From positions 1 through 64,000 of the forward strand of contig VXRD01000052.1 of the NCBI GenBank assembly GCA_009838845.1: a DNA stretch of 64,000 bases, in the 5' to 3' direction. Within the stretch, counting starts at the first letter, position 1, and each line of letters begins with the position of its first letter. This DNA is from Gemmatimonadota bacterium. Lineage in GTDB: Bacteria; Latescibacterota; UBA2968. Position numbers and translations under genes: made by a program. Positions 30,447 through 43,893 of this stretch are shown one piece after another. The notes beneath the pieces were generated by a model. The model was not told the origin of the DNA, did no database searches, and saw nothing but the letters and a program-made list of their open reading frames with translations.

Positions 30447-31592
30447 ATGAAACACACACGCTCAGACGGTCCAACCGAACTCACCCTCGAGCAAAAACGC
30501 GCTTTCTATCGAGATGGGTACATTATCCTCAAAAACATCGTGCCCAAAGAGCTGACCCAACGTGCCCGGCGGCTGGTCAACATCACCGCAGGTAAAATCC
30601 TGAACGGCACAATGGATCCGCCCAAAAGAAGAAACCGTTATGTCGGCTGTGAAGATGCCATCACAGACCTCATTAATAAAACAGCGCTGACCGACATCCT
30701 CACCAACACGATGGGGCCATTCGATCCTCCGACACACGGCTTTTCACCGGTCCTGTATCCGCGCGAGCCATCCAGAGAAATCGGCAACCACGGTCTGCCC
30801 GACGATGAAGTGCCCAATCACGCCTTCTTCCCGCACATTGATGGCCAGTGGTCTGGAGCCATTCCCAAAACAGCGGACGAAGTGGACGATTGGCATGTGC
30901 CCAAAACGCCACACTTTGGAGATCGCAGTGCCAACGTGCTCGGGGTAAACGGTACGCCTTTGTTTCAGAATCCAGATTGCACGCTCTCCCTCGGCAGTTT
31001 TACATGCTTTGCCGTTGTTGTCCTCAGCGATCAATCCAAATTTGGCTATGGCAACTTTGCCGTCCTTCGGGGTGCCCATCATCACACGGCTGAATTCTTC
31101 AGGCAGCAACGCGACCAAGGTGGCGTCATCGGCCCTGAAGGCCATGGTTGGCCACGTTTAAAGCGTGTTGGTGACAAGGGTGTTGGTATCAATACGCTTC
31201 CAGAATGGATCGCCAATCATTATCGTGAGGGCGCGCAGTTCACACCTGATGGCCTTATGTGGCCTGAGCCTACCCCTGTGCTCGCTGAAGAAGGCGATGC
31301 CTTTATTTCGGTTCACGGTATTCCTCATTGCGGTACCCGCAACGATTTGGGCGCAGACCCACGCATCAGTGCCTACTATCGATTGCGTCGCCATCGTCCC
31401 GGTGGTGCCAAAGTGCGAGGAGACAGCGATCACCCCGACCGCGGTTGGGAAGGCGAATTTCTCGACTATCCCGAAGGTTATGATCCATGGCAAATTTCTA
31501 TCGATAAACTGTGTGATCCTTGGAGTGAGTGGGATGGCATGCAGGAAGTCGTTGCTGAGGCACAAAATTCGAGAGATCAAAACGATGCTTGA
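30447..31592 (+). CDS. PhyH-like Fe(II)/2-oxoglutarate dioxygenase, long form
   Basis: A 381-residue member of the phytanoyl-CoA dioxygenase family. It starts with the family's LTLEQKRAFYRDGYIILKN segment, has HxD in FFPHIDGQW (His130, Asp132) and a distal His in GIPHCGTRN (His294) with Arg306 beyond. The long insert between the ligands (about 140-280) is larger than in typical members. AGAGG precedes the start. The stop overlaps the acid sugar kinase start by 8 bases, so the two are translationally linked and probably act in one pathway. Confidence 0.82.
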   Translation: MKHTRSDGPTELTLEQKRAFYRDGYIILKNIVPKELTQRARRLVNITAGKILNGTMDPPKRRNRYVGCEDAITDLINKTALTDILTNTMGPFDPPTHGFSPVLYPREPSREIGNHGLPDDEVPNHAFFPHIDGQWSGAIPKTADEVDDWHVPKTPHFGDRSANVLGVNGTPLFQNPDCTLSLGSFTCFAVVVLSDQSKFGYGNFAVLRGAHHHTAEFFRQQRDQGGVIGPEGHGWPRLKRVGDKGVGINTLPEWIANHYREGAQFTPDGLMWPEPTPVLAEEGDAFISVHGIPHCGTRNDLGADPRISAYYRLRRHRPGGAKVRGDSDHPDRGWEGEFLDYPEGYDPWQISIDKLCDPWSEWDGMQEVVAEAQNSRDQNDA

Positions 31593-32853
31593 ACTTGGTG
31601 TGATCGCAGATGATCTCACAGGTGGGATGATGGTCGCGAGTTTGCTCGAAAGAGAAGGCGTGCGTTGTCCACTGGTAACATCTGGTGATGCACTCAATAC
31701 ACTCGACGACGATGCACAAGCTGTGGTCGTTGGACGAAAACTCCTGATCCAACCCCCTGACGATGCCCGTGCCGATGCAAAACGCACGGCTGAAGCTCTG
31801 CTCGCCAAAGGTACGAAACAGATATACTACAAATACAGTGCGCTCTTTTCATCTACAGCACGTGGCAATATCGGGCCTGTGGCAGAAACGTTGATGGACT
31901 TGACCCAGGCCGACCACGTATTTTTTTGTCCCATCTGGAAAAACACAACAATCTATCAAGGGCGGTTGTTTCTCGGGTCGATCATGCTACACGAATCACC
32001 GAGACGCAATGATCCTGTAACACCGATGACCAATTCCAATCTTGTTGAAGTACTACAGAAACAAAGTCAGGTCAAGGTAGGTCTTTTGCCATATCAAATT
32101 GTGGCGTCAGGAACAGACGCTTGCGAGAACTACATTTCAGAGCAGAAGACCCTGGGCGTAAAGTTTTTTATTGTCGACGTGATTGACGAGTCGAATCTTG
32201 AGCAATTGGCAACACTGTCCAAGGATTTGCCATTGAGCACTGGCGCAGATCTACTCCCTGTGATGCTTGCGCGCAACTGGCAGAGGGACAAAAAGAGCCA
32301 ACCGAAAACATTACTGCCGCCTGCACCTGGTTATGAAGCCGTTATTTCTGGGAGTTGCACGGGAAAATCAGTCCGGCAACTTGCGCATTTCGAGCAAACG
32401 CATCCGGTGTTTCGCATTGACCTTTTAGAAGCAGCTCAAGACGCCAACATGGTTGACCACATTGTCGAATGGGCAAAAGACCGATTAGAAAAAGGGCCTG
32501 TAGGTGTGGGTACCTCAACGGATCCTGAAGGCGTAAAAAGAGCCCAGGCGGAGCTCGGCCGCGAAGGCGCTGCAACACTTGCCGATAAGCTTCTGTCCAG
32601 TGTTGCCCAGCATTTCTATCAGCACGGTGTACGTAAATTTGTTGTGATGGGGGGAGAAACATCAGGGGCCGTCATGGCATCTTTAGGTATAGAGCAAGTT
32701 TCGGTGGCGACATTCGACGTTCTCAACGGTGGTTATTGTCATAGTTCAGGGAGCGATCCATTGTCGTTGGTACTGAAAGCGGGCGGTGTTGGTGAAGACA
32801 ATTTTATTCATACCGCCCTGGAGCAGATGCGTAAAGCAGATAAAAACCAATAA
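31585..32853 (+). CDS. Four-carbon acid sugar kinase family protein (OtnK-like)
   Basis: A 422-residue kinase of the DUF1537 group, which phosphorylates 3-oxo-tetronates or related four-carbon acid sugars. The N-terminal domain opens with GVIADDLTGGMMVASLL, the family's substrate-site signature. The C-terminal nucleotide-binding part has GPVGVGTST and FVVMGGETSGAVM. I chose the ATG at 31585 because the family N-terminus begins there; the same frame stays open upstream as a shadow of the PhyH gene. It is followed 10 bases later by a class II aldolase-like gene, as in otnK-otnC pairs. Confidence 0.86.
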   Translation: MLELGVIADDLTGGMMVASLLEREGVRCPLVTSGDALNTLDDDAQAVVVGRKLLIQPPDDARADAKRTAEALLAKGTKQIYYKYSALFSSTARGNIGPVAETLMDLTQADHVFFCPIWKNTTIYQGRLFLGSIMLHESPRRNDPVTPMTNSNLVEVLQKQSQVKVGLLPYQIVASGTDACENYISEQKTLGVKFFIVDVIDESNLEQLATLSKDLPLSTGADLLPVMLARNWQRDKKSQPKTLLPPAPGYEAVISGSCTGKSVRQLAHFEQTHPVFRIDLLEAAQDANMVDHIVEWAKDRLEKGPVGVGTSTDPEGVKRAQAELGREGAATLADKLLSSVAQHFYQHGVRKFVVMGGETSGAVMASLGIEQVSVATFDVLNGGYCHSSGSDPLSLVLKAGGVGEDNFIHTALEQMRKADKNQ

Positions 32854-32863
32854 AGGAATACAT

Positions 32864-33523
32864 ATGGAAGATGATCCCGTTTATGAAATGGCCTTACGCG
32901 AGCAATTGGTTTTTTATTATAAAAAAGTTGGAGAGCTTGGCTTAAACGAAATGTCCTCTGGCAATCTGAGCGTCCGATTTGGCGACAAAATGCTCATCTC
33001 TCCCAACCACGCAACCGCAGACAATATTACCACAGAAACGATTGTCAAAGCCACCTTCGACGGTGAGTATGAAGGCGACCGCAAACCATCTTCGGAATCG
33101 CCCATGCATGGTGCCATCTATAAAAAGCACCCCAAAGCCGGAGCAGTGGTTCACACCCACTCCGATTACTGCGTTGCGGTATCGTGCCATGTGATGACCC
33201 TACCGGGCTTTCACTACCTTATGGGTGTGTTTGGCGGTAACGATGTACCCTGTGTCCCTTATTCCACATTTGGCAGCCAATCGCTTGCCGAAGACGCATC
33301 CGAAGCGCTCTATGACCGCACCGCGTGTCTCCTCGGAAACCACGGCATGGTCTGCCACGGACCAACCTTAAAACGCGCTGTCAACCAGGCCCACCGTCTG
33401 GAAATCATGTGCCGACAATACGTGCTTTCCCGTCAGCTTGGCGAACCAAAATATCTGACCGATGACGATTGGTACGCGTTTCACAACAGAGGCGTGGAAA
33501 ACCAATACGGCAAAAACGGTTAA
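32864..33523 (+). CDS. Class II aldolase/decarboxylase (OtnC/FucA-like)
   Basis: A 219-residue zinc enzyme of the class II aldolase/adducin family. Catalytic Glu78 lies in SSESPMHG, zinc ligands His97 and His99 in VVHTHSDYC, and a third His in LLGNHGMVCHG. The start at 32864 follows AAAGGAA. Next to an OtnK-like kinase the most likely role is 3-oxo-tetronate 4-phosphate decarboxylase, giving dihydroxyacetone phosphate; fuculose-phosphate-type aldol cleavage is the alternative. Confidence 0.85.
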   Translation: MEDDPVYEMALREQLVFYYKKVGELGLNEMSSGNLSVRFGDKMLISPNHATADNITTETIVKATFDGEYEGDRKPSSESPMHGAIYKKHPKAGAVVHTHSDYCVAVSCHVMTLPGFHYLMGVFGGNDVPCVPYSTFGSQSLAEDASEALYDRTACLLGNHGMVCHGPTLKRAVNQAHRLEIMCRQYVLSRQLGEPKYLTDDDWYAFHNRGVENQYGKNG

Positions 33524-34635: not shown

Positions 34636-35112
34636 ATGACCAAAGAAATTGAACGAAAGTTTTGCGTGCGAAAGATGCCAGATCTAACGGTCTGTACAGG
34701 AGTAGAAATCTCACAGGGCTATATTTCAGTAGGCGAGAATGGTCCAGAGGTCCGCTTGCGTCACAAGGGCAAGCGATTTTATCAGACTGTGAAAATTGGT
34801 GAGGGTGTGCAACGGACGGAAGTTGAGGTGGAATTGAGCCGAGCGCAATTTGATACCCTCTGGCCTTTAACTGAGGGCAGGCGGGTCGAAAAAGTGCGTT
34901 ATGAGATAGCCGAAGGAATATGGACGATTGAACTGGATGTGTACCGCGGCCGCCTGAAGGGCCTGGTAGTGGCCGAAGTCGAGTTTGAGACCATAGACGA
35001 AAGTTCGCGCTTTGTCCCGCCCCCCTGGTTCGGACGAGAAGTGACCGATGATAGTCATTATAAAAATGCCTATCTGGCATTGATGGGAATTTCAAATGAT
35101 CACGCGCTGTGA
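34636..35112 (+). CDS. CYTH domain protein (triphosphate tunnel enzyme family)
   Basis: A 158-residue CYTH protein with the N-terminal ExExK signature (Glu4, Glu6, Lys8 in KEIERKF) and alternating charged strands (VRLRHKGKRFYQTVKIG, RTEVEVEL, VEKVRYEI, IELDVYRG, VAEVEFE) that line the tunnel. Members hydrolyse inorganic or organic triphosphates. The CHAD-domain gene starts 17 bases inside its 3' end. Together with that partner a role in polyphosphate or tripolyphosphate metabolism is likely. Confidence 0.88.
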   Translation: MTKEIERKFCVRKMPDLTVCTGVEISQGYISVGENGPEVRLRHKGKRFYQTVKIGEGVQRTEVEVELSRAQFDTLWPLTEGRRVEKVRYEIAEGIWTIELDVYRGRLKGLVVAEVEFETIDESSRFVPPPWFGREVTDDSHYKNAYLALMGISNDHAL

Positions 35113-36619
35113 AACTTATGTCTTACGCGAGCCTGCTGGTTCGGATCTAATAGAAACACTTGGGCTTGAATACAGTAAATCTCTGCCTGAGAAAGAGGAA
35201 ATTATTCAGTATTACGATACATTTGACTGGCGTTTGTATCAGAAGGGACTCGCGCTGATACAAACGGGAAATGCGGTGTATTTGCAACGAATTTCAGATG
35301 GTGCATACCCGCACGATCAGATCGAAATGAAACAACATCTGGAAGGTCGCTTCTGGTGGATGTTCCCAGAGGGCGAATTGCGCGACACATTGCGGGGGGC
35401 GCTCTCTGTTCGGACGCTGTTACTCCGAGCACAGGTGAGGCAGAAGGTTTGCGAATTTGGCGTTTTAAATGCAGATGAAAAGACGGTTGTTCGGTTGTTT
35501 ATCACGCATACCAGCACAGAAAATGGACACATTGCGACTTTGACTTGCCGAAGCGTGCGGGGATATGAGCGCGATTTTGAGAATTTACGCCGTCGTTTCC
35601 GAAAATTGGATGTGGCACATGTGGCAGAAGATGTATTTGAACGCGTGATGGATCTCGCTGGGTGTGTGCCGGGCGATTATTCTTCAAAGCTGAATCTCGA
35701 CCTGAATCACGAGGCGAGTGGGCGTGAAGCAACATGTGAGATTTTGAGATGTCTGAACGATGTGATGCGCCAAAATGAAACGGGCATTCGCACGGATTGG
35801 GATACGGAATTTCTGCACGATTTTCGGGTTGCGATTCGGCGCACGCGGTCGGCGCTGAGTCAAATCAAAGGCGTTTTGCCCGAAGGTGCTGTAGCACATT
35901 TTAAGGATGAGTTTCGGCAATTGGGCAGATCGACCAATCGGTTGCGCGATCTGGATGTGTATTTGCTCGATGAAGAGACTTATCGCGCGATGTTGCCCCG
36001 GTCACTACAACCCGGGCTGGATGCCGTGTTTTCGCGCTTAAAAAGTGAGCGACGGCGCGCCCTTAACGATATGGTACAGATTCTCGATGCACCTGAATAT
36101 CTGGACCTGATGGATTCATGGGCGGCTTTTTTGCAGGGGGCACAGTCTCAGAGGGGGAGAGATTCCGCTGTGCCGGCTATAGCCCTTGCGCGAAAATTTA
36201 TTTTTAAGCGTTTTAAGCTGGTGCTCAAAAGGGGCAAGGCGATAGGAGACCATACGCCCGACGAGGCATTGCACGATTTGCGAATCGACTGCAAGAAATT
36301 GCGATATTTGTTAGAATTTTTTGCCTCTTTTTTTCCTAAAGATAAGATGGATAAACTCATCGGGTCTATGAAGAAATTGCAGGATAATCTGGGAGATTTT
36401 AACGATTTATCGGTACAACAGTGGGAATTGACGACCTATTTAAACGAAGTATTGCCCCGCAGCCGGCGTGCGGACCGCCTGCTTTGTGCCGCGGCTATTG
36501 GCGGGCTTATTGCGCGTTTGCACGACCAGCAGCAAGCTGTTCGGCACGAATTTGCCAGTGCGTTTGCCGTTTATGCAAAAAAGAAAAATGTTCGTTTGTA
36601 CCGCGATTTATTTGGATAG
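35096..36619 (+). CDS. CHAD domain protein with degenerate CYTH-like N-terminus
   Basis: A 507-residue protein. Residues 1 to about 200 look like a diverged CYTH-type beta domain (HDQIEMKQHLEGRFWWMFPEG, VRQKVCEFGVLNADEKTVVRL) lacking the ExExK motif. The rest is a CHAD helical domain: HDFRVAIRRTRSALSQIKG, RDLDVYLLD, and a second repeat LHDLRIDCKKLRYLLEFF. CHAD domains carry conserved His and basic residues that bind polyphosphate and can target proteins to polyphosphate granules. It overlaps the CYTH gene and is followed 22 bases later by a ParA-like gene. Confidence 0.87.
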   Translation: MITRCETYVLREPAGSDLIETLGLEYSKSLPEKEEIIQYYDTFDWRLYQKGLALIQTGNAVYLQRISDGAYPHDQIEMKQHLEGRFWWMFPEGELRDTLRGALSVRTLLLRAQVRQKVCEFGVLNADEKTVVRLFITHTSTENGHIATLTCRSVRGYERDFENLRRRFRKLDVAHVAEDVFERVMDLAGCVPGDYSSKLNLDLNHEASGREATCEILRCLNDVMRQNETGIRTDWDTEFLHDFRVAIRRTRSALSQIKGVLPEGAVAHFKDEFRQLGRSTNRLRDLDVYLLDEETYRAMLPRSLQPGLDAVFSRLKSERRRALNDMVQILDAPEYLDLMDSWAAFLQGAQSQRGRDSAVPAIALARKFIFKRFKLVLKRGKAIGDHTPDEALHDLRIDCKKLRYLLEFFASFFPKDKMDKLIGSMKKLQDNLGDFNDLSVQQWELTTYLNEVLPRSRRADRLLCAAAIGGLIARLHDQQQAVRHEFASAFAVYAKKKNVRLYRDLFG

Positions 36620-36641
36620 TGAATCTCATTGAGGAGCGGGT

Positions 36642-37382
36642 GTGAGTATCTTTGCTTTATACAGCATGAAAGGTGGCGTAGGGAAGACCGCCGCCGCTGT
36701 GAATCTGGCTTATGAAGCGGTCCGTTCTGGTGCGACTGCGTTGCTGTGCGATTTAGACCCTCAAGGGGCTGCGGCTTTTAATTTTCGCATTCGAGCCAAA
36801 AAAAAGTTTGGGCGCAAGCGTTTCTTGAAGGGCGGTAAGCACTTAGACAATAATATTCGAGGGACGGACTTTGAAGGTCTGGACTTATTGCCTTCGGCCA
36901 TGTCTTTTCGCAATATGGATTTGGGGTTGGACGAGCGGGCAAAAAACAAAAGCTATTTGAAGCGTCTGTTGACGCCGATGCGGAAAGATTACGATTATAT
37001 TTTTTTCGATTGCCCGCCCAATCTGACGCTCCTTGCCGAGCATGTTTTCAGGGCAGCCGATTATGTGGTTGTTCCGTGTATTCCGACAACTCTGTCGATG
37101 TTGACGCATCAAAAACTGGTAGAGTTCTTTAAAAAAAATAAATTAAAGCGCAAAAAAATGGTGTCGTTTTTTTCAATGGTTGAACAGCGCAAGACAATGC
37201 ACAGGGAAATGATCGCACAGGTGGGCGAGCGCGAGGGAAAATTTTTGAACGCGCAAATTCCTTACACGACAGATGTAGAACAGATGGGATGGGCGAGACA
37301 ACCCGTGGCATGCTTCAAGCCGCATTCAAAGGCAACTCAGGCGTATCGAGAACTGTGGGCAGAATTGCAAATGCTTAGATGA
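36642..37382 (+). CDS. ParA/MinD-like partition ATPase
   Basis: A 246-residue ATPase with the deviant Walker A KGGVGKT (residues 10-16), a LLCDLDPQGAAAF Walker A'-type segment, and IFFDCPPNL (Walker B). Start is GTG at 36642, after GAGGAG. Basic stretches (KKKFGRKRFLKGGKH, FKKNKLKRKKM) could give nonspecific DNA binding. No parB or parS is visible, so it is probably not the chromosome partition ParA; such orphans position cytoplasmic cargo. Its place behind CYTH and CHAD genes suggests polyphosphate granules as cargo, which is inference. A strong terminator follows. Confidence 0.85.
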   Translation: MSIFALYSMKGGVGKTAAAVNLAYEAVRSGATALLCDLDPQGAAAFNFRIRAKKKFGRKRFLKGGKHLDNNIRGTDFEGLDLLPSAMSFRNMDLGLDERAKNKSYLKRLLTPMRKDYDYIFFDCPPNLTLLAEHVFRAADYVVVPCIPTTLSMLTHQKLVEFFKKNKLKRKKMVSFFSMVEQRKTMHREMIAQVGEREGKFLNAQIPYTTDVEQMGWARQPVACFKPHSKATQAYRELWAELQMLR

Positions 37383-37412
37383 GTGGTGTGCAACAGCAAT
37401 GTCTAAAAATAA

Positions 37413-37444
37413 CCAACCCCCCGATAAACTTGTCGGGGGGTTGG
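37413..37444. terminator. Bidirectional terminator between parA-like and tonB genes
   Basis: A perfect 12-bp stem (CCAACCCCCCGA, 37413-37424, with 37433-37444) closes an 8-base loop between two convergent genes. T-rich sequence follows on the minus strand (complement of ctaaaaataa) and TGTTTG on the plus strand. Confidence 0.85.
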
Positions 37445-37460
37445 TGTTTGCGTTCGTAAA

Positions 37461-38375: not shown

Positions 38376-39917
38376 ATGGGAAACCGCTTCTCTCATTTGC
38401 TATTTATGTGTGCTATGGGCCTTCTGATTGGATGTTATAACCCCCAAAGAGATCTGAGCATAGACCCATACAATACACCGCTTATCCACATTCTCGATGC
38501 CTCCTATAATGTTGAGGAGAACACCTGGGGAGTGGTCACTGTGCAGTGGGAGTATCTCGGGCAGAAGCGCGTTGAGAACTTTGTCCTCCAGCGTCGAGAT
38601 ATTTCCGATTTTAGAAATATTGAGCTTTCTTCCGGTGCCGATGACAATGGTAAATACGCGACTGTGGGTGCGTTTCGAGACGAAAAACTGATTGCTGGCG
38701 AGCGCCTGCAATACCGCGTGGTTGCCGAACACAGTGAGGGTGGCCTGGTGAGTACTTCTGCTGTTGAAGTCCCTATCCCCGGTGCTGGTTTACGCGAAAT
38801 TCGGCGCGACCCCGTTGCTCTTGCTGTGCAGCTCGTCTGGCATGATGAGGGAAACACGGCGAGAAGTTATGAAATTCTGAGGACGCCTGAAGGTGGTGAT
38901 AAAAAAATTCTTGCAGTCATACAAAGCCGTGCACAGACCTCCTTTTGGGATCGGTCGATTTCCGACAACCGCTCTTATACTTATGCCATAAGGTCTATGC
39001 GTGTCTCAAGGTCTCCCCTTTCGACGGATGTGCGGCTCACAAGTCGCAGTGTGAGTGTGCAATTTTACCGCGAAGTGGGGCGACACATCGTAGAGGCTCT
39101 AAGCGGAACGAATGAGCGGATGAGGCTTGCAGCAGCAGATTCCGATGGCGAAGCCGACATGCTCGCCCTGATTGTTCGCCCCAATCAGATTTCGCTTTCT
39201 CGCCTGCGACATACCCTGAGTGTCGATATTCCCAACGCGCTATCACGCCACCTGGTCGGGACTTCTTTTCCGCGATTGAACGACCTCGTGTCGCAATCGG
39301 TGGATCTGGCTGGACCTTCGCTTGCTGGGCAGGGGGCTTTTCAACGCGCTTATATCGGGGGTCTGGATCGGTCAGGGCGCGTTGTAGTAGTGGGTATCGA
39401 ACTGATAAATAATAACACGGTGTGGCGTATTCCCGACAATTGGGTAAGCGCGTCTTCGCATGTGCGATTGGCCCAGGACGATCAACAGCGGATTTATATT
39501 GCGACAGGCGGGCAATTACGCGTCTATTCTGCCGCGGGTTCTCCTGTGGGCACTTTCGATCTCGAAGAGGATCCCGTGGATATCGCAGTTCACAATGGTG
39601 TTATCTGGGCCGCCTGGGCAAATCGAGTTCAACGAGGGGTTTTGCGCTTTTCTGGAGAAGTGCTCAACAATATTGCGTGGGAGGTTGTGCTGCATACTCA
39701 GATCGAACCGCGCGCTTTAACGCTCAATGCCGCAGGGCAAATTTTTGTATTGGATCGCAGGCAGGTGCGCGTGTTTCAGACAGATGGGACACCACTTCTC
39801 TTATGGGCACTGCCTTCGAGCGCATTCTCAGCAGGTGATCTAACTATCGGTGGATCAGCCAGAAATTTTGTCCATCTTTCAGATGAAAGTGGGGGAGTCA
39901 TAACGTATGTACCGTAG
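38376..39917 (+). CDS. Lipoprotein with fibronectin-like and beta-propeller-like segments
   Basis: A 513-residue predicted lipoprotein: signal peptide with lipobox LIGC (Cys20). The first third after the signal looks like two fibronectin-III-like units (VQWEYLGQKRVENFVLQRRD; LVWHDEGNTARSYEILRTPEGG). The later part (about 310-513) has repeated short strands reminiscent of a beta-propeller (RIYIATGGQLRVYSAAGSPVG, QIFVLDRRQVRVFQTDGTPLL). No enzyme residues are evident. It overlaps the next gene by 11 bases, so lipoprotein, membrane protein and GWxTD protein are probably made together at the cell envelope. Confidence 0.7.
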   Translation: MGNRFSHLLFMCAMGLLIGCYNPQRDLSIDPYNTPLIHILDASYNVEENTWGVVTVQWEYLGQKRVENFVLQRRDISDFRNIELSSGADDNGKYATVGAFRDEKLIAGERLQYRVVAEHSEGGLVSTSAVEVPIPGAGLREIRRDPVALAVQLVWHDEGNTARSYEILRTPEGGDKKILAVIQSRAQTSFWDRSISDNRSYTYAIRSMRVSRSPLSTDVRLTSRSVSVQFYREVGRHIVEALSGTNERMRLAAADSDGEADMLALIVRPNQISLSRLRHTLSVDIPNALSRHLVGTSFPRLNDLVSQSVDLAGPSLAGQGAFQRAYIGGLDRSGRVVVVGIELINNNTVWRIPDNWVSASSHVRLAQDDQQRIYIATGGQLRVYSAAGSPVGTFDLEEDPVDIAVHNGVIWAAWANRVQRGVLRFSGEVLNNIAWEVVLHTQIEPRALTLNAAGQIFVLDRRQVRVFQTDGTPLLLWALPSSAFSAGDLTIGGSARNFVHLSDESGGVITYVP

Positions 39918-40683
39918 TCTATTCGTCTGGGTGTGGTTCTGTCTGGCGATAGGTTCGGCTTGGGCGGATGATCGGGGAATTATTGAAAGAGCACAGGCCG
40001 CCTATCGCGCAGGGGATTATGCTACCGCATTTGAGACGCTCTCTCATCTTCCGAGCTTGTTGGGCGTGGTGCCTTTGTTAGATAGACCTCAGCAGAGTCG
40101 GAGAGCCGAGATCTTTTTTGATCTGGGGCGCATTCACATGGCTTCTGGCGATACGGCTCGTGCGCGTCTGGCACTTGTTGAAGTACTTCACCTGGATCCA
40201 GAGACCAACAAGGGGATTATGGACATCCCCCCCGATCAAGCACTTGTAGATACGCGAGCATTGTTTTTGGACATGCGCCGTAAAACAGTGCGACAAACCC
40301 TTAAAGGAACTACATTTTGGGGGGCTGCCGGTCGTTCGCTTCTCTTGCCAGGGTGGGGACAATTGTACCGCGGACACAAAAAACGAGGATATGGCTTTAT
40401 GGGGGCTTCAGCGGTGCTCGCTGCGGCCTGGCTTGTGACCGATATATCCTATCGCAGTGCATATAATACCTATCGCGGTACGCGTTTGAATGATTTGCAA
40501 CTGGGTCAACGCATAGCAGGTACGGATTCCGATGCATTTACGCGCAATTTTGAACGCGTGGAATCTCGCGCGGGACGGGCCAATCTATTCCTGGGCTTGC
40601 TCGCGGCGGTCTGGTTATCCAGTGTATTGGATCATCTGGTGATTGGGCCAGCTCAAGTTTCCCTGTCAGTGTCCATAAATTGA
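39907..40683 (+). CDS. Exported TPR / DUF5683-like membrane protein
   Basis: A 258-residue protein with a signal peptide (about 1-20, ending AWA). Residues 22-110 form TPR-like helices (IIERAQAAYRAGDYATAFETL; IFFDLGRIHMASGDTARARLAL). Then comes GRSLLLPGWGQLYRGHKKRGYGF followed by a hydrophobic helix and a second one near 230-245, the layout of DUF5683-type proteins. Function unknown. Overlapping its upstream gene by 11 bases and lying 12 bases before the GWxTD gene, it is probably part of one envelope complex. Confidence 0.72.
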   Translation: MYRSLFVWVWFCLAIGSAWADDRGIIERAQAAYRAGDYATAFETLSHLPSLLGVVPLLDRPQQSRRAEIFFDLGRIHMASGDTARARLALVEVLHLDPETNKGIMDIPPDQALVDTRALFLDMRRKTVRQTLKGTTFWGAAGRSLLLPGWGQLYRGHKKRGYGFMGASAVLAAAWLVTDISYRSAYNTYRGTRLNDLQLGQRIAGTDSDAFTRNFERVESRAGRANLFLGLLAAVWLSSVLDHLVIGPAQVSLSVSIN

Positions 40684-40695
40684 GGGAGGCCGGGT

Positions 40696-43600
40696 TTGAG
40701 GCTATTGTTGAGGCGACAAATATTCTATCTGGCATGTCTTTATGTACTGACAGCGTTTCTGTTGCCTGTCAGTGCTTTTTCTCAGCCGCCTGCCACCTTC
40801 CGATTGGCAATCGCGCCCTTTTATTCTCCTTACAATGGCGATTATGGCGTCTATATGGCCGATCGCATCGCCTATGAACTCCATCGCCGTGCTTATGTGC
40901 CAGCTCTGGGAAGGGCGCGGTTTGTTTTAATAGAAACCGATGTGCTGATGGGGGAAATAGATCAGACAGATAGACAGCTTTCTCCCGATCTACGCGAGTT
41001 CCTTAGCAAAAGGGTTCCCGCCTCTTATCTCTTGACGGGTTCTGTAGCGTTTACAGGGATTTATTTGATCAAACTCAAACTCATTGATCTTCGGACGGGT
41101 ATGATTGTCTGGACTGGCGATGTGCGGGACAATCCGGCCTGGGTTTGGACGCGAGCGCATCGATCTGTGGGAGAGATTCCCGCTGCCGAAGTGCGGTCTT
41201 CGCTTGGATTTGGCGCAGTGGAAACACCTGTACCAGCGCCAGAGGCTGAGCATTTGCCACATCATATCCTCCTGCAACCGCTTCATACCACGGATTATTT
41301 ACCTCTTGCTGCCGATTGTGAAATGCACCTCAAAAATGCGATTCAGCGCGATGGCCTGTTTTCTCTCGTACCAGGGGCATTAAAAGGAAGACAGGAGCAC
41401 GGGCGGTTTTCTCGCATCAGTCCCGATTTGCGCCGGGAAGCATCAGAAACAACGCTTGCGGAGGCCATCCTGACGGGTAGCTTGCTCGTGCTGGGCAAAG
41501 ATGGCGCAACAGACAATATCGGTCTGGTGTTGCGTTTGATTGAAGTAGAGACCGGGCAAATTCTCTGGATGGGGTCTTCAACCGGGCGAAGGGTCTGGCG
41601 ATGGGACAAAATGGCGGATATTGTATCTGCGACCATGGGGCGGCTCGGTGAAGACCTTTCGCAGTATGGGGCAGGGGCAGCAGAAACGCAGATTGCAGCG
41701 TTGCGCGACCTGGCAAAAGATGGGAAATCGTGGAGTGTGCTCGGTCATGCCTATCTCGAGCGGGGATTGCTCAAGCAGGCTGAAGAAGCATTTGAAAAAG
41801 CTATGATTTTTCCCGATGCGCCGGCACAGGCGCGCGCGGGAAAAGGGCTGGTACTGCTGAGGCGGGGCGGGTATTTCGATGACGGGGTGCAAGCACTCAG
41901 ATCTGCAATTCGATCTGATCCAGATTATCTGGATGCGTACAGCTTTTTAGCACAGGCTCTTCTCGACCAGGGGATGGTCGATGGGGTTAAAATTGCCGAA
42001 AACGCCATTCGGCGCGATTCGACATATCTCCCGCCATACCGCGTGCTGGGCGATTGGTATGCCGACAGCGAAGACCATCAAAGGGCACGGGCGTTTTACC
42101 AGGTTTATTTGGCGCACGACCCCGACGACGAAGTCGCTGAGTGGATGGGTAGAAGTCTGTTGCAATTAAAAAATTATCGGGATATCGACCGTTTTGTCGC
42201 ACCCATCGCACGCGAAAAACCCGAAGCCTCGCATTTGTTGCCCATTATGGCAATCAAAGCACTACGGGTGAAGCGCTACGGGGAATCGACCCAATTATTC
42301 GAGCGATTCCTCGCGCAAATTGACGCGCGTGAACGCCAGCTTTACGATGATATTCGGGTACTATTGTCAGGGGAGGAAATAGAGATTTACCACGCGCTTG
42401 ACGATGTAGAAAAGAAAAAGTATGTGGCGCGGTTTTGGCGTGCAAAAAATCCGAATTTGTCCAGCGCGTACAACGAGCGCCAACTGGCGCACTACGAACG
42501 GGTCTGGACAGCGCGCTGGGCATTTGGGCGGGAAAATTATCCCTGGGATCGACGTGGTGAAGTCTATATCCGCTATGGTGAACCCGATTACCGCGCCCGA
42601 TCGGGATGGGTTTCCTCGCTGCCTTCAACGCGCGTGCAGGAAGTGAAGGAAAAGGTGTACCGAGAATTGTATCGGGATCCCAATGACAGTGAATTGATTG
42701 GTCCGGTTTTTCCCATTCGGAGCGATCGCGGGTTTGCTGCTGAACGCGAAAGGCAGGTAATCGATATTCCCGATCAGAGTACCTTTGGCCCGGTTGAAGG
42801 ACGCCGCGAAGAAACCACTCGCAGCGACCCTTCTCAGGAAGCTTATGCGCCTGTTACCATGCAACACGACCGCAGTATCGTGCCCTGGGAGTCGTGGGTC
42901 TATACCGAGGTAGATGGCGGTATAGTCATCGATTTTACACGCGAATTGGGTGGTGTCTCCGGGTTTGATTTCGCCCCTATTCCGCCCATTCCTCCCACTA
43001 TGCTCAGAGACAATATTCGCATTGCCGAACACGCTCCGGCAATTCGCTACAAAAATGCTACCGTGAACCAGCCCGACGAATTTCGCAGAGCACCTCGTTT
43101 GTCGCTGGGCACTTTTTACTTTGATCTGGCGGACTTTCGAGGCAATGCAGGCAAAACCCGCGTGGATGTTATGTATGGCATACCGCTTGAAAATTTGCTC
43201 GTCGTTACAGATGGGCAACAGCCCCAGGTGGTGCTCGAACACGCGGTTGCGCTGGCCGATTCAGCATATCGCGTGGTGTATCGAAACACGCAAAAAGTGC
43301 AACATTTTGTAGATACTTCAATTGTCGTTACTCAGGAAGTCGTGGATATCACGCGCCAGGACGTACCCGCAGGGATGTATCATCTTGCACTGACCGTTAC
43401 CGATGTTATGACCGCGCGGCAAGGAGTACTCGCGCTCGATGTAGCGATTGATGACTACGGTAAAGAACAGCTTCATATCAGCGATCTCATGCTTGTTAAG
43501 AGTCTATCGGATACGCTGCGCGCTGCGCGATTTCGACGGGGAAATTGGCAGGTTGTTCCCAATCCTCGGAGGACTGTTCGTGCGCCCAATCCACTCGCGT

Positions 43601-43893
43601 TTTATTGCGAAGTGTACAATTTGGCGAAAGACGACTTTGGGCAGACCCGCTATCGCGTGACAACCGCAGTCAAGGCAGCGGAAACAGAGCAGAGGCGTAC
43701 GCCGGGTACTGTTGACCAACCCGAGATCGCGCTGTCCTATACACAGGTGGGCAATAGCGATTGGGAACGGTTGCCCCTTGAAGTCCATCTCGAACACGCA
43801 CAGGTAGGACAAAATCGTCTCTTTGTGATTATTGAGGATCTCGTTGCGGGAACACAGGTGGCAAAGGATACTTTTTTTCAGTATATTCGATGA
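40696..43893 (+). CDS. GWxTD-domain protein with TPR region
   Basis: A 1065-residue exported protein, with a signal peptide to about residue 29. Residues 30-330 hold two copies of a CsgG/LpoB-like module (IAPFYSPYNGDYGVYMADRI ... LLTGSVAFTG; LLQPLHTTDYLPLAAD ... ILTGSLLVLG). TPR-like helices follow (about 340-520). The GWxTD-type region around 590-680 contains WDRRGEVYIRYGEPDYR. A C-terminal beta-rich part follows. TTG at 40696 is chosen as start because GAGGGAGG lies 6 bases upstream. GWxTD proteins are of unknown function and are frequent in Latescibacterota, Acidobacteria and similar phyla. Confidence 0.82.
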   Translation: MRLLLRRQIFYLACLYVLTAFLLPVSAFSQPPATFRLAIAPFYSPYNGDYGVYMADRIAYELHRRAYVPALGRARFVLIETDVLMGEIDQTDRQLSPDLREFLSKRVPASYLLTGSVAFTGIYLIKLKLIDLRTGMIVWTGDVRDNPAWVWTRAHRSVGEIPAAEVRSSLGFGAVETPVPAPEAEHLPHHILLQPLHTTDYLPLAADCEMHLKNAIQRDGLFSLVPGALKGRQEHGRFSRISPDLRREASETTLAEAILTGSLLVLGKDGATDNIGLVLRLIEVETGQILWMGSSTGRRVWRWDKMADIVSATMGRLGEDLSQYGAGAAETQIAALRDLAKDGKSWSVLGHAYLERGLLKQAEEAFEKAMIFPDAPAQARAGKGLVLLRRGGYFDDGVQALRSAIRSDPDYLDAYSFLAQALLDQGMVDGVKIAENAIRRDSTYLPPYRVLGDWYADSEDHQRARAFYQVYLAHDPDDEVAEWMGRSLLQLKNYRDIDRFVAPIAREKPEASHLLPIMAIKALRVKRYGESTQLFERFLAQIDARERQLYDDIRVLLSGEEIEIYHALDDVEKKKYVARFWRAKNPNLSSAYNERQLAHYERVWTARWAFGRENYPWDRRGEVYIRYGEPDYRARSGWVSSLPSTRVQEVKEKVYRELYRDPNDSELIGPVFPIRSDRGFAAERERQVIDIPDQSTFGPVEGRREETTRSDPSQEAYAPVTMQHDRSIVPWESWVYTEVDGGIVIDFTRELGGVSGFDFAPIPPIPPTMLRDNIRIAEHAPAIRYKNATVNQPDEFRRAPRLSLGTFYFDLADFRGNAGKTRVDVMYGIPLENLLVVTDGQQPQVVLEHAVALADSAYRVVYRNTQKVQHFVDTSIVVTQEVVDITRQDVPAGMYHLALTVTDVMTARQGVLALDVAIDDYGKEQLHISDLMLVKSLSDTLRAARFRRGNWQVVPNPRRTVRAPNPLAFYCEVYNLAKDDFGQTRYRVTTAVKAAETEQRRTPGTVDQPEIALSYTQVGNSDWERLPLEVHLEHAQVGQNRLFVIIEDLVAGTQVAKDTFFQYIR

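Follow-up and report, generated by a model that had tools for sequence, protein, structure and literature searches.

A conserved CYTH–CHAD–ParA operon encodes a candidate module for positioning polyphosphate granules

The window analyzed here is the whole 64,000-nucleotide stretch of contig VXRD01000052.1, from a bacterium placed in Latescibacterota. It contains three consecutive genes encoding a CYTH protein, a CHAD protein, and an orphan ParA/MinD-type ATPase, arranged as follows:

34636–35112, + strand: CYTH gene; 158 aa, begins MTKEIERKF with ExExK intact; Pfam CYTH, E = 3e-7
35096–36619, + strand: gene for a CYTH-like plus CHAD protein; 507 aa; Pfam CHAD, E = 1e-60
36632–36637, + strand: GAGGAG, likely ribosome-binding site of the ParA gene, read from the sequence 5′ of the GTG
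36642–37382, + strand: gene for an orphan ParA/MinD-type ATPase; GTG start, 246 aa, KGGVGKT; Pfam AAA_31, E = 1e-34
37412–37445, no strand assigned: strong inverted repeat, a probable bidirectional terminator, between ParA and a convergent TonB gene

The CYTH and CHAD genes overlap by 17 nt and the CHAD and ParA genes are separated by 22 nt, confirming the three-gene layout given in the original prediction. The SDR gene upstream of CYTH is divergent, and a terminator scan of both strands identified 15 pairs in the hairpin at 37412–37445 (folding z = −6.9); together, these boundaries define CYTH, CHAD, and ParA as a bounded unit. The three genes are closely packed in one operon that a strong terminator closes. 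Elsewhere in the window, a gene for a DUF1537-type kinase (SBD_N/NBD_C) adjoins a class II aldolase gene (31165–33523; a probable sugar-acid catabolic pair), and the region past the convergent TonB-like gene (38376–43893) encodes a 513-aa protein with no Pfam match and then two TPR proteins, the first small and the second 1065 aa long. The CHAD gene of the operon is the only one in the source genome, and PPK1 is present as a single copy apart from the operon, on contig C126. The ATPase had been described as a ParA without ParB, and no ParB gene is adjacent to the locus; the sole ParB_N match in the genome adjoins a different, chromosomal Soj-type ParA (contig C170).

The original prediction named the second gene product simply as a CHAD protein. 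The CHAD assignment holds, but the AlphaFold (AF2) model (pLDDT 92.8, pTM 0.90) is two-domain, with a tunnel (CYTH/TTM-like) fold at residues ~1–195 and a long CHAD domain at residues ~196–505. For the C-terminal domain, Foldseek returned polyphosphate-bound 6QVA (TMt 0.95); for the N-terminal domain it returned tunnel enzymes, including thiamine triphosphatase, AtTTM3, and CyaB-like structures (TMt up to 0.67). The N-terminal domain is probably a degenerate, noncatalytic tunnel domain, because it lacks ExExK and its profile showed no significant match to that of the separate CYTH enzymes. The likeness to those enzymes is seen in the fold only. The domain order is that of YgiF, a TTM-CHAD tripolyphosphatase; the predicted difference is that the CHAD-fused tunnel domain is degenerate here and the active-looking CYTH is a separate protein.

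Among proteins of solved structure, CtCHAD (3E0S/6QV7/6QVA; phmmer E = 4e-63) is nearest to the window CHAD protein; it is a CHAD phosin of the same long-CHAD subfamily. The CtCHAD pore residues H253, R256, R260, R296, R418, and Y419 correspond to H241, R244, R248, R284, R403, and Y404 in the window protein, and all six are invariant in 41 family sequences. In its publication, CtCHAD is described as the CHAD domain alone, without the tunnel domain, with sub-micromolar to micromolar affinity for polyphosphate and a polyphosphate 9-mer bound in the central pore; no mention of ParA was found in the passages searched (PMC6537752). The expectation that the CHAD protein binds polyphosphate is therefore borne out for its subfamily, which includes CtCHAD, and by direct orthology the window protein would be expected to do the same.

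For the separate CYTH protein, the nearest solved structures are 3TYP and 2FBL (E about 1e-37, full length), and the protein is 47% identical to the product of the CYTH gene in the Nitrosomonas europaea operon. That gene overlaps parA at the 3′ end of the latter and is NE1496 (NeuTTM) itself, with identity across 151 residues; the window enzyme thus has its closest solved relative within the same operon in N. europaea. The window protein carries the ExExK motif as EIERK and groups with the NeuTTM tripolyphosphatases. We take NE1496 to be an inorganic tripolyphosphatase specific for tripolyphosphate. Because it is the closest characterized relative, clearing of short end-products is likelier than long-chain trimming, and the window enzyme may clear tripolyphosphate at the end of chain breakdown. 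The original prediction, in which this enzyme trims the polymer, is accordingly somewhat loose.

CYTH domains also occur in class IV adenylate cyclases, and the locus could in principle be a signaling unit in which polyphosphate regulates a cyclase through CHAD, with ParA as a bystander or cyclase localizer. A ppk-parA-CHAD cluster in Acidithiobacillus has been interpreted in this way (PMC6416229). The CHAD-fused CYTH-like domain lacks ExExK, most of the loci described below have no separate CYTH gene, and where one occurs in the window it matches NE1496, presumably a tripolyphosphatase, and not CyaB. We consider a signaling role very improbable.

The ATPase contains the signature lysine K10, the Walker lysine K15, D39, and D123, all kept in 134 of 134 aligned relatives, which places it in the ParA/MinD family; R90, H187, and E213 are invariants specific to this ParA. 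Inspection by eye revealed no C-terminal membrane helix, and none of the NCBIfam equivalog models gave a score above its cut-off. The protein shares its fold and Walker motifs with Soj/ParA of the Soj/ParA-Spo0J/ParB systems but falls in a separate clade, whose CHAD-linked members come from many phyla. This separate clade and the absence of a cognate ParB at the locus speak against a plasmid or chromosome partition ParA and place the protein outside ParABS. In fold searches, Soj, ParA, and McdA ranked above BcsQ, although BcsQ structures were also among the matches. The family is strongly basic (mean charge about +8, versus −8 for the Soj of the same genome). Two arginine positions of Soj, which we take to be its DNA-binding residues, were mapped onto the family; the first is generally retained and the second is D/E in most members. 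No natural CHAD-ParA fusions were seen. The single fusion found, in a MAG labeled Bacteroidetes (L059:5992–7677), joins ParA at its C terminus to a HAD-type phosphatase (S6PP/Hydrolase_3), with no CHAD gene nearby.

Conservation was examined first within the phylum, using a sample of 64 genomes. This ParA was found at high score in 15, and a long-type CHAD gene adjoins it in all 15; this ParA is missing from genomes whose CHAD genes are all short or low-scoring. The window's genus keeps the CYTH gene beside CHAD-ParA. A second family of the same order has CHAD-ParA without CYTH, and PPK1 is found a short distance downstream of ParA in four of the five genomes from that family, at one locus giving CHAD-ParA-PPK1 in a row with a ParA-PPK1 gap of 95 bp. 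At two loci from this order (L037 and L035), one relative's ParA has internal stop codons and another's CHAD gene is broken up, which may reflect a decaying system or faulty assemblies.

To extend the comparison beyond the phylum, 84,980 species genomes were searched with a ParA profile and the best 80 loci, from over a dozen phylum-level groups, were examined. A CHAD gene was nearby in 64 and lay directly upstream of ParA on the same strand (≤300 bp) in 61; the commonest junction was a 4-bp overlap. The groups represented include Chlorobi, Ignavibacteria, KSB1, Latescibacterota, Desulfobulbaceae and other deltaproteobacteria, Dadabacteria, Binatia, Verrucomicrobia (Cerasicoccus), Lentisphaerota, Actinomycetota, Dormibacterota, Alpha-, Beta-, and Gammaproteobacteria, and one MAG labeled Methanophagales. 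This last, nominally archaeal locus (L044) carries PPK1, PPX, CHAD, and ParA and represents either horizontal transfer or a misbinned contig. CYTH genes were present at about one-fifth of the best 80 loci (13 counted), on either side of the pair, and most loci are without a separate one. The full trio occurs in Nitrosomonas, Rhodobacterales, Cerasicoccus, Lentisphaerota, KSB1, Dadabacteria, and Colwellia. Conservation across phyla was the outcome on which the original prediction had been staked, and it is found for the CHAD-ParA pair, with the trio in several groups. The adjacency is not due to chance, because the genes adjoin in every ParA-bearing genome of the phylum sample and in 61 of the 80 relatives from the wider search. 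A lineage-specific accident is ruled out by this cross-phylum adjacency and by the distinct ParA clade.

Recurrent neighbors among the best 80 loci were genes for a PhoR-like kinase (12 loci), PPK1 (11), a SixA-type histidine phosphatase (11), PPX (6), NUDIX (6), and PhoU (3). The CHAD-ParA neighborhood is one of polyphosphate and phosphate control. One locus encodes a protein 100% identical to CtCHAD and was taken to be that of Chlorobaculum tepidum. Its gene order is PPK1-X-CHAD-ParA, the full CHAD protein is 522 aa, and ParA starts 2 bp downstream; the CHAD partner of the C. tepidum ParA is therefore exactly CtCHAD. The gene between PPK1 and CHAD (L176:9531–10352, − strand) has no Pfam match, and its relatives occur at four other Chlorobiaceae loci (L069, L071, L074, and L093).

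Co-occurrence was assessed in 299 Pseudomonadota genomes. CHAD was present in 49 of 56 genomes with this ParA, compared to 99 of 243 without it (Fisher p = 6e-11, relatedness ignored), and was not found in the other seven ParA-positive genomes. Among ParA-bearing genomes reached through the loci, all 16 contain CHAD, including cases where the genes are unlinked. Pairwise distances for ParA and CHAD are correlated (Mantel r 0.75; 0 of 2000 permutations), a correlation that shared ancestry alone can yield. Many gammaproteobacterial ParA relatives (L124–L143 and L148–L163) are solo, without adjacent CHAD. Most of their genomes lack PPK1 but encode PPK2 together with a short CHAD gene, which often diverges from PPK2; this rules out PPK1 as a required companion. 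The solo ParAs may act remotely on the same cargo or may have changed partner. They lie near truA, cysM, and uppP, and these neighbors, in mostly PPK1-less genomes, lend some weight to the alternative that ParA segregates DNA or other cargo and that CHAD adjacency reflects only shared regulation under phosphate stress. That explanation is improbable: it does not account for CHAD-ParA adjacency with 4-bp overlaps maintained across phyla, for the correlated distances, or for co-occurrence of unlinked CHAD; PPK1 or PPK2 is present in 53 of the 56 ParA-positive genomes; and the source genome has its own Soj-ParB pair.

In McdAB-like systems, the cargo partner has a positively charged, disordered N terminus (PMC10241942). 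A ParA-activating Lys/Arg-rich N-terminal peptide had been anticipated for the CHAD protein and was looked for, but it is absent; the first 25 residues of 71 CHAD partners have a mean net charge of +0.1, against a background of +0.5. If CHAD activates ParA, another surface must therefore serve. The CHAD-ParA pair from Methylotuvimicrobium buryatense was also modeled as one chain, with the stop read through under NCBI table 27. The AlphaFold model of this fusion gave a pTM of 0.80, without a negative control or inter-domain error, where roughly 0.65 would be expected for independently placed parts (estimated from the pTM definition). The model hints at a CHAD-ParA contact and is given little weight.

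The missing activator peptide and the acidic residue at one presumed Soj DNA-binding position would also fit a ParA that uses ATP to regulate the polyphosphate machinery or to help assemble it, much as BcsQ does for cellulose synthase, by loading or releasing CHAD/CYTH proteins or PPK and setting chain length or granule nucleation. Gene linkage fits this role equally, and BcsQ is the second-scoring NCBIfam model for the window ParA. The signature lysine, the ParA-type D39-P40-Q41, and the basic charge of the family instead fit a DNA-scaffolded ParA, and Soj, ParA, and McdA structures outrank those of BcsQ. On balance, we regard a regulatory role as rather unlikely.

Collectively, the data make it very probable that the CYTH-CHAD-ParA module serves polyphosphate. 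Positioning of polyphosphate granules by ParA through CHAD is the best explanation of its function, and one that we hold with about even confidence. In its favor are the CHAD-ParA adjacency, the polyphosphate-gene neighbors, the CtCHAD and NE1496 identities, CHAD co-occurrence, the correlated ParA and CHAD distances, the Soj/McdA-like fold, and the pTM of the fused model; weighing against it are the lack of a basic CHAD N terminus, the acidic residue at the presumed second Soj DNA-binding position, the solo gammaproteobacterial ParAs, and the seven ParA-positive genomes without CHAD. In the proposed mechanism, polymer would be made by PPK1, encoded elsewhere in the source genome and within the operon in relatives. 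The CHAD protein would coat polyphosphate via its basic pore, as shown for the C. tepidum relative, and ParA would cycle without ParB, its ATP-bound form residing on a scaffold within the cell (probably the nucleoid). At the granule, the CHAD protein would trigger release of ParA, either directly or via the degenerate tunnel domain, and the separate CYTH enzyme, if it acts like NE1496, would hydrolyze tripolyphosphate left from chain breakdown. Spacing of the granules and their distribution to both daughter cells would follow, in the way that McdA/McdB serve carboxysomes. That system likewise pairs a ParB-less ParA/MinD ATPase with a cargo-binding partner encoded beside it, a trait matched here by the conserved CHAD neighbor, and McdA is among the nearest folds. 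The module differs in its proposed cargo, the polyphosphate granule; in its partner, a CYTH-like/CHAD protein that is folded and has no basic, disordered N terminus; and in an ATPase that keeps the classical signature lysine. In Pseudomonas aeruginosa, polyphosphate granules are spaced on the nucleoid by AlgP, but this is a single histone H1-like protein and not an ATPase (PMC9239181).

The original prediction knew of no described system with these three genes. A literature search, with subscription papers and preprints mostly outside its scope, likewise found none, nor any paper joining the CtCHAD, NE1496, and ParA facts; it did find that local ppk-parA-CHAD clusters in Acidithiobacillus had already been noted, without a positioning interpretation and with the CYTH-CHAD protein viewed as a cyclase or copper-related (PMC6416229, PMC10892726). 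The CHAD-ParA module is real, widespread, and apparently undescribed as a system. A 2025 review of organelle positioning lists the component that spaces polyphosphate granules and its ATP dependence as unknown, and the granule-positioning proteins of Caulobacter as unidentified (PMC13052382). The locus offers a conserved candidate ATPase and partner for this process and links CtCHAD with NE1496, both of which already have solved structures. It also provides a likely cargo for a ParA class outside every NCBIfam equivalog model. We tentatively propose a widespread, unnamed ParA/MinD class dedicated to polyphosphate granules, in which a folded CYTH-like/CHAD protein takes the place of ParB, uses its pore to sense the polymer, and switches the ATPase through a mechanism that does not involve a peptide, so that granule placement would be ATP-driven in many phyla. 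Cultured bacteria carry the module, making the question directly testable.
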